This document shows positions 24,831 to 57,406 of a stretch of 64,000 bases of DNA, piece after piece. A program made the position numbers and the translations under genes. Origin of the DNA: Chroogloeocystis siderophila 5.2 s.c.1 (GTDB lineage: Bacteria; Cyanobacteriota; Cyanobacteriia; Cyanobacteriales; Chroococcidiopsidaceae); NCBI RefSeq assembly GCF_001904655.1, contig NZ_MRCC01000004.1, positions 186,001 to 250,000 on the forward strand, in the 5' to 3' direction. How positions within the stretch are numbered: the first letter of the stretch is position 1; each line of letters opens with the position of its first letter. The notes beneath the pieces are model-generated. The model did no database searches, had not been told where the DNA came from, and was given only the letters and a program-made list of their open reading frames with translations.

Positions 24831-27308
24831 TTACTGTTCTACAGCTTGCGGTAACAATTCCCGTCGCTGTTCAGCAAGTACTTTGACATTACCAGTATCG
24901 TCAACATCAACGACAGCTGTATCACCATCTTTGATGCGTCCAGACAAGATTTCTTCTGCCAAACTGTCTTCAAGTAAGCGCATAATCGCCCGACGTAGTG
25001 GTCTTGCACCGTAGCTCGGATTGTATCCTTCTTCTACTAAGCGATCCTTGAAGCGATCAGTAACTTCTAGCGTAATTCCCTTCTCAGTTAAGCGTGTAAA
25101 CACTTCCTTGAGCAGGATATCCGAGATTTGCTTGACTTCGTCCTTCGACAATTGACGGAAGACGATGATTTCATCCAAGCGGTTCAAGAACTCTGGGCGG
25201 AAGTATTGCTTGAGTTCTTCGTTAACTAATGAACGAATGCGATTGTATTGCGCTTCGGCTTGGTTCTCAGCAAATTCAAAGCCTAAACCACCACCACCTT
25301 TTTCAATCACTTTAGAACCAATGTTCGAGGTCAAGATCAGCAACGTATTCTTGAAGTCTACGGTGCGACCTTTCGCATCGGTTAAGCGACCGTCTTCAAG
25401 AATTTGCAGCAGCATATTGAAGACATCGGGGTGTGCTTTCTCGATTTCATCGAATAGCACTACAGTATATGGTCTGCGGCGTACGGCTTCGGTTAATTGA
25501 CCGCCTTCGTTGTAACCAACGTAGCCTGGAGGCGAACCGATGAGTTTACTAACGGTGTGGCGTTCCATGTATTCCGACATATCCAAGCGAATCATCGCTT
25601 CTTCGGAACCAAAGAAGTAAGCTGCTAACGCTTTTGTTAACTCGGTTTTACCAACACCAGTAGGTCCAGAGAAGACAAAGCTTGCAATCGGACGGTTGGG
25701 GTTTTTTAAGCCAACTCTTGCACGCCTAATTGCTTTAGAAACTGCCTTGACCGCATCTTCTTGACCGATGAGTCGCTGATGCAATGTGTCTTCCATGTGC
25801 AACAGTTTCTCGGATTCGGTTTCGGTGAGTTTATTGACAGGTACGCCCGTCCAAGAAGCAACGATTTGCGCGATATCTTCCTCAGTCACCACTGGAGAAT
25901 CGTTTTCTCCTTCGCGGGTGCTGGTGGTTTTGCTTTGCGCGATCGCCCGAATTTCGGCTTTGATTTCCATCTCGCGATCGCGGAGTTCGCCAGCGCGGTC
26001 GAAGTCTTGCGATCGGACTGCATCGTCTTTTTCTTTAAGAACTTGACGCAGTTCTTTATCTAACTCTTTCGCTGCGGGAGGAAGTTGCGAGTTAATTAAA
26101 CGCACTCTTGAACCGGCTTCGTCGATCAAGTCGATGGCTTTATCTGGTAAGTAGCGATCGCTGATATAACGGTCGGAAAGCTTCGCAGCAGCGACTAGGG
26201 CTTCATCCGAGATTTTCAGCTTGTGGTGTTGCTCGTAACGTTCGCGTAGACCATACAAAATCTCGATTGTTTCGTCTACCGAAGGTTCGCCCACCATCAC
26301 CGGTTGGAATCTGCGTTCGAGGGCGGCGTCGCGCTCGATGTGTTTGCGGTATTCATCGAGTGTTGTTGCACCGATACACTGCAATTCACCTCTTGCCAAA
26401 GCAGGTTTGAGGATGTTTGCTGCGTCGATCGCACCTTCAGCCGCGCCCGCACCAATCAGCGTATGCACCTCGTCAATCACTAAAATCACGTTCCCTGCTG
26501 AACGGATTTCATCCATGATTTTCTTTAGGCGTTCTTCAAATTCACCGCGATACTTTGTACCTGCAACGAGCAAGCCGATATCGAGGGTGACGACGCGCTT
26601 TTCTTCGAGGATATCGGGAATATCTTTGTTGGCAATTCGCGATGCCAAACCTTCGGCGATCGCGGTTTTACCTACACCCGGTTCTCCGATTAATACTGGA
26701 TTATTCTTGGTACGACGACCTAAAATTTGAATAACTCGCTCGATTTCTTTTGCACGACCAACAACAGGATCGAGTTTACCCTCAGCAGCCATTTGAGTTA
26801 GGTTCGAGCCAAACTCATCGAGTGTTGGAGTTTTAGTGCGACCCGATTGCGAAGATCCGGCTGATACCTCAGCGGTTTCTCCCAACATCCGAATCACTTG
26901 CGTGCGTACTTTAGATAAATCAACTCCTAAGTTTTCTAGTACTCTTGCTGCAACGCCTTCTCCTTCGCGGATTAAGCCGAGTAGCAAGTGCTCGGTACCA
27001 ATATAGTTATGTCCTAGCTGGCGTGCTTCTTCTAGAGAAAGTTCCAAAACTCGCTTTGCCCGTGGGGTAAACGGAATTTCCACTGCCACAAAGCCAGAGC
27101 CTCGACCAATAATTTTTTCGACTTCAATCCGAGCGTCTTTAAGGTTGACGCCCATGGATTTCAGCACTTTAGCCGCTACACCTGTCCCTTCCCCTATCAG
27201 ACCCAGGAGGATCTGCTCTGTACCTACGAAGTTGTGACCCAGGCGGCGAGCTTCTTCCTGGGCCAGCATGATCACTTTAATAGCTTTTTCTGTGAAGCGT
27301 TCAAACAT
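24831..27308 (-). CDS. clpC: ATP-dependent Clp protease ATP-binding subunit ClpC
   Basis: An 825-residue AAA+ unfoldase that feeds ClpP. The Clp_N double repeat spans 1-140 ([28 protein letters not shown]). The first AAA+ domain has Walker [12 protein letters not shown] and [19 protein letters not shown]/coiled-coil M domain lies near 420-460 ([18 protein letters not shown]). The second AAA+ domain has [14 protein letters not shown] and [15 protein letters not shown], and the C-terminal D2 small domain carries [16 protein letters not shown]. The length equals other cyanobacterial ClpC. It is monocistronic, transcribed away from rimI. Its N-domain is a close paralogue of the Clp_N part of the ArsR fusion at 56549. 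Confidence 0.97.
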
Positions 27309-56450: not shown

Positions 56451-56470
56451 ATTTCTATTAGTATCAATAG
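56451..56470. promoter_or_regulatory. candidate distal operator of the ArsR-Clp_N gene
   Basis: ATTTCTATTAGTATCAATAG contains CTATT-6-AATAG and shares its first 11 bases (ATTTCTATTAG) with the proximal site 78 bases downstream. Two sites of the same kind ahead of an ArsR-type gene suggest cooperative or looped self-regulation. Confidence 0.5.
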
Positions 56471-56528
56471 GTGATCGCCCTAATTGTATTGTGACAATTC
56501 TTCACAAAATTTTAAATTTAATTTTATT

Positions 56529-56548
56529 ATTTCTATTAGACTAGAAAT
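56529..56548. promoter_or_regulatory. candidate proximal operator overlapping the start of the ArsR-Clp_N gene
   Basis: ATTTCTA-TTAGAC-TAGAAAT is a perfect 7-base inverted repeat with a 6-base spacer and ends one base before the ATG. It occupies the place where a ribosome site would be, and no such site is visible. Binding here would block transcription or initiation. Confidence 0.6.
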
Positions 56549-57406
56549 ATGGAATCAAGCACGGCAAAATATGCAGATTTATTTGCGGCACTTGCGTCAG
56601 AACCTCGGCTAGAAATTATGCGATTACTCTTTGCAACTTATCCGCAAGGAATGATCGTGAGTGATATTCAAGCCAAATTACAAATTCCCAATTCAACACT
56701 GTCGCATCATCTAGAGAAATTGCGACAAGAGCATCTCATCAGTTCTAGAAAAGAAAAGCAATATATCTGGTACGCAGTCAACACCAAGACAATCGAAGAT
56801 TTATTAGCTTTTCTCTTTAACGGCTGTGCGATCGCGAACCCTCGCAGTAGACAAGACAAGCTAGACCCTGTTCGCAATCCATTCACGGAGGCAGGATTTA
56901 TGTTTGAAGGATTCTTAAACTCCATCGAAAGCCTATTTGATAGCGTGTTTGACCGGATTGTGCTTCCCAGAGGTTTTGAAAGATTCACGCAAAAAGCAAC
57001 GCAAGTCATTGCGCTAGCCCAAGATGAATCGCGCCGTTTGGGACATCAATACGTTGGTACTGAACAACTTTTATTAGGACTACTCGGAGAAGGAACCGGA
57101 ACCGCCGCACAAATTCTTTTAGCCGAAGGACTCAACGTAGAAAATCTGCGAATAGAAGTCGAGAAACGCATTGGACGTGGGAAAGGAACGCCGCTGGATA
57201 TCCCTTTTACACCGAGAGCCAAAAGAGTTTTAGAGCTTTCTGTTGAACAATCACAGCGATTAGGTGATCAATACATTGGTACTGAACACCTACTGTTAGG
57301 AATTTTGCGCGAACGCGGAGGAATGGCGGTTCGCGTCCTCGAAAGCTTAGGAGTTAATCTATACAGCTTAGAACAGCGAATTCTTCAATGGAATGCATCT
57401 AATTAG
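56549..57406 (+). CDS. ArsR-type HTH fused to a ClpC-like Clp_N domain
   Basis: 285 residues. Residues 7-92 form a winged helix of the ArsR family (LFAALASEPRLEIMRLLFAT, recognition helix PNSTLSHHLEKLRQEHLI, wing SSRKEKQYIWYAV) without the ELCVCDL metal site. A linker of ~45 residues with an amphipathic stretch (MFEGFLNSIESLFDSVFDRI) leads to a full Clp_N double repeat, 143-280, very like ClpC ([30 protein letters not shown]). Glu172 and Glu246 match the two glutamates that bind phospho-arginine in Bacillus ClpC. No AAA+ domain follows. It is probably a transcription factor whose sensor is a degron- or adaptor-binding domain. agmatinase follows within about 70 bases. Confidence 0.88.
   Translation: MESSTAKYADLFAALASEPRLEIMRLLFATYPQGMIVSDIQAKLQIPNSTLSHHLEKLRQEHLISSRKEKQYIWYAVNTKTIEDLLAFLFNGCAIANPRSRQDKLDPVRNPFTEAGFMFEGFLNSIESLFDSVFDRIVLPRGFERFTQKATQVIALAQDESRRLGHQYVGTEQLLLGLLGEGTGTAAQILLAEGLNVENLRIEVEKRIGRGKGTPLDIPFTPRAKRVLELSVEQSQRLGDQYIGTEHLLLGILRERGGMAVRVLESLGVNLYSLEQRILQWNASN

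Follow-up and report, generated by a model that had tools for sequence, protein, structure and literature searches.

A cyanobacterial ArsR-type regulator fused to a ClpC-type N-domain, with a conserved palindrome at its own start codon

Introduction

What would the substrate-docking domain of a protease do if it were parted from its motor and placed behind a DNA-binding domain? The question is raised by one gene in a 64,000-nucleotide stretch of the Chroogloeocystis siderophila 5.2 s.c.1 genome (contig NZ_MRCC01000004.1, positions 186,001 to 250,000), here called the window. The original prediction, made from the sequence alone, was that the product, an ArsR-type helix-turn-helix (HTH) joined to a ClpC N-domain, senses the signals that guide substrates to ClpCP, such as MecA and phospho-arginine, and turns them into gene control.

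Results

An ArsR-type winged helix joined to a ClpC-type N-domain

The gene is one uninterrupted open frame, as predicted (Table 1). Pfam placed HTH_20 at residues 15-60, HTH_5 at 20-66 (score 33.4, cut-off 22) and two Clp_N stretches in the protein, all above cut-off, and the ArsR/SmtB family NF033788 of NCBIfam spanned residues 9-86 (67.9 bits, cut-off 55). Pfam gave no AAA+ match, in agreement with the predicted lack of a motor, and PADLOC gave weak matches to the HTH part only. The recognition-helix region was almost invariant across 12 aligned homologues. An AlphaFold2 model (mean pLDDT 65.6) was good in the Clp_N part only; since it was poor around the ArsR part (residues 67-144 below 50), the assignment of that part rests on sequence. 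The helix predicted in the linker, considered as a conceivable built-in ligand, falls within this poorly modelled stretch.

Residues 142-279 shared 63% identity with the N-domain of ClpC from elsewhere in the window, bearing out the predicted closeness of the two. The solved structures closest to the Clp_N part by sequence were ClpC N-domains, and fold matches to its predicted structure included ClpC N-domains with cyclomarin, rufomycin, lassomycin, ecumicin, phospho-arginine, and MecA. The domain thus resembles that of ClpC in the same genome in fold and sequence, while the fusion lacks the AAA+ modules. By sequence, it is thus a DNA-binding protein whose sensor position is occupied by a ClpC-type ligand domain.

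Table 1. Features of the fusion gene and of the comparison gene clpC, in window coordinates
Feature	Position	Strand	Basis
ArsR-Clp_N fusion gene, 285 aa	56549..57406	+	Open frame, ATG start, Pfam/NCBIfam, relatives
ArsR-type winged helix, residues 7-92, recognition helix IPNSTLSHHLEKLR	56567..56824	+	NF033788, homologue alignment
Linker, residues 93-142, helix predicted at 115-133	56825..56974	+	AlphaFold2 model, low confidence here
ClpC-type N-domain, two Clp_N repeats, residues 143-280	56975..57388	+	Pfam, structure/fold matches, identity to ClpC
Glu172 codon (ClpC E31; B. subtilis E32 in the numbering of the original prediction)	57062..57064	+	Kept in 28/28 distinct fusion rows
Glu246 codon (ClpC E106)	57284..57286	+	Kept in 28/28 distinct fusion rows
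Operator palindrome TATTTCTA-TTAGAC-TAGAAATA, ending on the first base of the start codon	56528..56549		Pattern match, family conservation
Degenerate operator copy, ATTTCTATTAG repeated, 3 mismatches to the palindrome; doubtful second site	56451..56470		Sequence reading
Promoter-like pair TTCACA-18-TATTAT, second hexamer overlapping the operator	56501..56530	+	2 found against a shuffle mean of 2.0, not above chance
clpC, comparison source-type N-domain, unlinked to the fusion	24831..27308	-	825 aa

The fusion recurs in several cyanobacterial families

Relatives of the fusion were found at E≤1e-56 in 17 of 291 genomes of the order, under six family codes, and a divergent further carrier (G045) matched at 7.6e-50. 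One pattern-based scan of named genomes, a weak test outside cyanobacteria, recovered near-full-length fusions in seven named contigs (Gloeocapsopsis, Spirirestis, Plectonema, Hassallia, Cyanocohniella, Scytonematopsis, and Microcoleus FACHB-1515). Because relatives occur in these 17 genomes and seven contigs, the fusion is a real family and not a sequencing join, and the domain-pair search extends it beyond one narrow clade to several families. A profile of the ArsR part matched 41 of 388 genomes of the class, which by score and frame length comprised nine fusions and 32 unfused relatives; in one of the nine (G566, locus L088), the frame is broken after the ArsR part. No record among 72,556 plasmid and 50,697 phage sequences covered 80% of the fusion query. 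ClpC N-domains were matched in nearly all of 60 relatives searched.

In all counts, identical rows were counted once. Dropped beforehand were L088, which is described only, L028 (a Clp_N remnant without ArsR), L029, L117, L118, L123, L124, L126, and L128, together with the L116 ClpB row of the Clp_N table.

A conserved palindrome at the start codon

The palindrome that ends on the start codon is new evidence, absent from the original prediction. In the last 60 nt before the start, we sought its pattern, ATTTCnA-N6-TnGAAAT, which fixes 12 bases. A site with no more than one mismatch preceded 26 of the 28 distinct fusion genes, compared to none of 241 control ORF starts from the same loci, one of which had a two-mismatch match. 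The operator ended at the ATG in 23 of the 28, and three genes carried two tandem operators, the nearer lying 3 nt before the ATG. Two divergent fusions (L035 and L083) had no operator, and their recognition helices were altered too. A palindromic operator in the gene's own promoter, which is an ArsR/SmtB trait, is therefore present in the fusion family.

TTGAC occurred at -34 to -36 in 15/28 fusion genes, compared to 19/259 control starts with TTGAC anywhere from about -60 to -24. As a -35 element, it would place the -10 within the operator. The window's own fusion gene has no TTGAC-type -35 at -34 to -36.

The fusion gene is the one target supported across the family

In whole-genome scans of the 17 fusion genomes, a site with at most two mismatches lay at the fusion gene in 16. 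Sites away from it numbered 56, compared to 53 for a reversed control pattern, and we rejected a wider regulon since these matches were at control level. A one-mismatch site common to G004 and G010 fell inside a coding frame and was rejected as chance. One candidate second target emerged in two genomes of one genus (G003 and G013), in which a palindrome with intact half-sites (L057:1501-1520 and L058:1501-1520) lies upstream of an RPE65-family gene of the carotenoid oxygenase type; the regulon may be larger in these genomes.

The neighborhood was compared at 25 loci, and the fusion was the only gene common to all. An arginase-family gene lies 3′ of it at eight, the window included (L021 and L069 are one contig), and all eight belong to the window's family or its named relative; we rejected it as a conserved operon partner since it is limited to close relatives. 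At six loci from several families (L072, L073, L074, L079, L022, and L024), the fusion is immediately preceded by a carbamoyltransferase-like (pyrB-type) gene of the same orientation. Lying upstream, this gene has no evident claim to be a target, but its recurrence calls for caution in describing the context as random. As no downstream gene is constant, the fusion protein is the one constant product of the promoter.

Thus, the gene control of the original prediction was too broad: across the family, the data support no target other than the gene's own promoter. The most fitting reading is of an autorepressor that controls almost nothing but its own gene, and the operator data make autorepression very likely.

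The ligand face of the Clp_N domain is largely kept

Glu172 and Glu246, the pocket residues singled out at first, were invariant in 8/8 aligned homologues and in all distinct fusion rows, with none of the loss that would have counted against the idea. Since both sit in the general Clp_N motif GTE(H/Q)LLLG, their presence is not diagnostic of phospho-arginine binding. MecA was found in 0/17 fusion genomes, while the control search matched in B. subtilis and L. lactis, making MecA an unlikely signal here. McsB gave no match in the 17 either, but in both searches the controls were silent too. We disfavor sensing of phospho-arginine or MecA.

Cyclomarin contacts F2, F80, K85, and E89 of mycobacterial ClpC1, according to the structural account in PMC5347014. 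In ClpC numbering, F2 was F in 17 of the 28 fusion rows and F or Y in 23, while F80 was kept in 25, K85 in 26, E89 in 24, and both E31 and E106 in 28. Over these six sites, mean identity to ClpC was 0.88, compared to 0.58 for the whole domain. Random six-site sets, which were uncorrected for buried or generally conserved positions, scored as high in 0.6% of draws. Thus, the ligand face looks constrained. What stands of the predicted link from sensing to gene control is the architecture, an HTH with a ClpC-type ligand domain whose ligand face is largely kept; the named signals are not supported.

Unfused sisters carry a cysteine pair

We read 22 of the 32 genomes with unfused ArsR relatives, the other 10 being judged by frame length. 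ECC was present in 22/22, as FLFEECCTRN in 18, while the CC pair was kept in one of 28 fusions; the sister-type metal(loid)-binding Cys motif is otherwise gone. Not every ArsR member needs a Cys motif. The same kind of palindrome, with zero to two mismatches, lay in the 110-nt stretch before all 22 sister genes. Downstream, an ArsI/CadI-type enzyme was identified in 2/2 cases tested and an ArsP_1 permease in 1/1 tested by Pfam; judged by eye, neighbors of the 22 included six ArsI-like and thirteen ArsP-like genes. In a tree of the ArsR domain, which has few columns and some long branches, the fusions formed one clade (99/94) and joined the sisters at 100/99, with 19 other ArsRs from four genomes falling outside.

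The sisters, of the arsR-arsI or arsR-arsP type, are thus like the fusions in their ArsR domain and in having a palindrome near the start, but they end in ECC, lack Clp_N, and are followed by ArsI/CadI-type or ArsP_1 genes where tested. Since these closest unfused relatives combine a Cys pair with an operator of the same kind and, in many cases, downstream arsI/arsP-type genes, a metalloid-type autorepressor seems to have given up its sensor for a ClpC N-domain and retained its DNA site.

XRE-Clp_N and other Clp_N proteins

A second HTH-Clp_N architecture occurs in the same order. Proteins of the XRE (HTH_3)-Clp_N type matched at E≤1e-24 in 26 of 291 genomes, although in G120 the match covered the HTH part only. 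The domains were confirmed in four examples, of which two also have a Uma2 domain. In the Clp_N tree, 18 short XRE rows formed a separate branch (100/100). The pattern TGTAAAGTnnTACTTGACA lay just before the XRE-Clp_N gene in 16 of 18 genomes (all but G016 and G182), and every listed match with at most one mismatch lay just before such a gene. These proteins therefore resemble the ArsR fusions in joining an HTH to a motor-less Clp_N behind a conserved operator, but differ in the HTH, in the operator, and in a divergent Clp_N on its own branch. XRE-Clp_N proteins with their own operators thus appear to have arisen separately in the same order.

The cyanobacterial XRE-Clp_N proteins of about 220 aa are at L121:1839-2504, L125:1956-2615, and L132-L149, and most of their genes are preceded by two conserved operator-like palindromes. 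In the longer forms at L119:677-1846 (-) and L120:1703-2983 (+), a C-terminal Uma2 (putative endonuclease) domain follows. A stand-alone Clp_N protein of 145 aa is encoded in the window's genome and in a sister genome (L115:2030-2467 (-) and L116:2035-2472 (+)), and G002 has a ClpB-like frame near and after the stand-alone gene. In the protein at L124:1667-2557, the N-terminal part is without assignment and the two Clp_N repeats are set further apart. Mycobacterium phage Myrna gp251 (L182:1546-2253) is a 235-aa Clp_N domain protein and a possible phage-borne ClpC decoy. Fusions of Clp_N repeats to vWA proteins are noted in PMC7159879.

Discussion

The best overall reading, and one we consider reasonably probable, is that the fusion is a self-inducing ClpC decoy or sensor. 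The metalloid-sensing end of an ancestral ArsR-type autorepressor would have been replaced by a ClpC N-domain. We infer that a dimer of the fusion would bind the palindrome at the start codon and block transcription of its own gene. Molecules that dock on ClpC N-domains could be ClpC-directed peptides or phage proteins, or a surplus of substrate that is unfolded or bound to an adaptor. When such a molecule builds up, it would also dock on the Clp_N part of the fusion, repression would be lost, and more motor-less Clp_N protein would be made. The extra protein could then draw the ligand off ClpC, much as ClpC2 of mycobacteria sequesters cyclomarin A.

We favor this reading because the operator is found at nearly every fusion gene, at no control start, and at close to control frequency elsewhere in the genome; because the six ligand-face sites are kept better than the domain as a whole; because ClpC2 provides a precedent with the same promoter layout; and because XRE-Clp_N genes of the same order have an operator of their own. 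Against it stand the two fusions without an operator, the possible RPE65-family target, and the fact that F2, a key cyclomarin contact, is F in only 17 of the 28 rows. No ClpC-directed natural product for these cyanobacteria was identified in this analysis.

The main rival is that the fusion gauges proteostasis: its Clp_N part would respond to unfolded proteins or to free ClpC adaptors (ClpS, NblA). Once induced, the fusion would compete with ClpC and buffer proteolysis, with no toxin involved. The same operator and ligand-face evidence fits this rival. ClpC2 is described as binding casein and as mildly heat-induced (PMC10030653), and the cyanobacterial ClpC adaptors given in PMC7966870 are ClpS1, ClpS2, and NblA. 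However, the fusion is patchy, while the ClpC N-domain is near-universal among the relatives searched. An accessory function fits this distribution better than a core gauge, and we regard a gauge as rather unlikely. It is much less likely that Clp_N is a delivery handle that brings the repressor to the ClpC protease via multimeric adaptors, so that it is degraded when adaptors are abundant; the shared domain fits, but a second docking domain would act as a competitor for adaptors and not as a substrate, unless the adaptor were multivalent. Least probable of all is an ordinary metalloregulator whose ArsR part still senses a metal or metalloid, with Clp_N as a passenger or stabilizing tail: the above-threshold ArsR/SmtB score and the arsenical type of the sister family agree with it, but the near-complete loss of the Cys pair, the constrained look of the ligand face, and the lack of any ars gene recognized by eye among the ORFs listed around the window's fusion gene argue against it.

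If the decoy or sensor reading is correct, an odd domain fusion becomes a circuit that can be tested, with its operator defined and a single product predicted, and a reporter driven by the fusion gene's promoter could serve directly to detect molecules that bind ClpC in cyanobacteria, in which few ClpC adaptors are known. We also raise, tentatively, a broader idea: HTH-Clp_N proteins (ArsR-Clp_N and XRE-Clp_N in cyanobacteria), together with ClpC2 in actinobacteria, may be self-inducing ClpC decoys of a kind that has evolved repeatedly and convergently, guarding an essential protease against N-domain hijackers such as antibiotic peptides and phage proteins. The ligand of each would then be a natural ClpC-targeting agent.

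The original prediction knew of no characterised example. By title, none of the open-licence literature matches listed concerns an ArsR-Clp_N or other HTH-Clp_N regulator. ClpC2 of mycobacteria is nevertheless a characterised Clp_N autorepressor and an analogue of the proposed circuit, so the statement holds for a fused HTH, which ClpC2 as described lacks. In the account given in PMC10030653, ClpC2 consists of a dimer domain and a ClpC1-like N-domain and autorepresses through a palindrome that lies 1-2 nt upstream of its ORF and, in many genomes, recurs further upstream. Binding of cyclomarin A to ClpC2 relieves the repression and sequesters the compound, protecting ClpC1.

Set against that account, the fusion shares a motor-less ClpC-type N-domain, largely kept cyclomarin-contact residues, and a palindrome directly before its own ORF, sometimes repeated upstream. 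The operator sequences differ, as do the means of binding them. ClpC2 dimerises through its own N-terminal four-helix domain and contacts DNA through Clp_N arginines, whereas the fusion has an ArsR winged helix where the four-helix domain would stand. The DNA-binding arginine R185 of ClpC2 corresponds to Glu233 in the window's protein (mapped by offset from F172/E181), and R occupies that column in one of 28 fusion rows. The circuit layout is alike and the parts are different, which suggests that the mycobacterial arrangement is not a one-off and that Clp_N has been put behind unrelated HTHs more than once.
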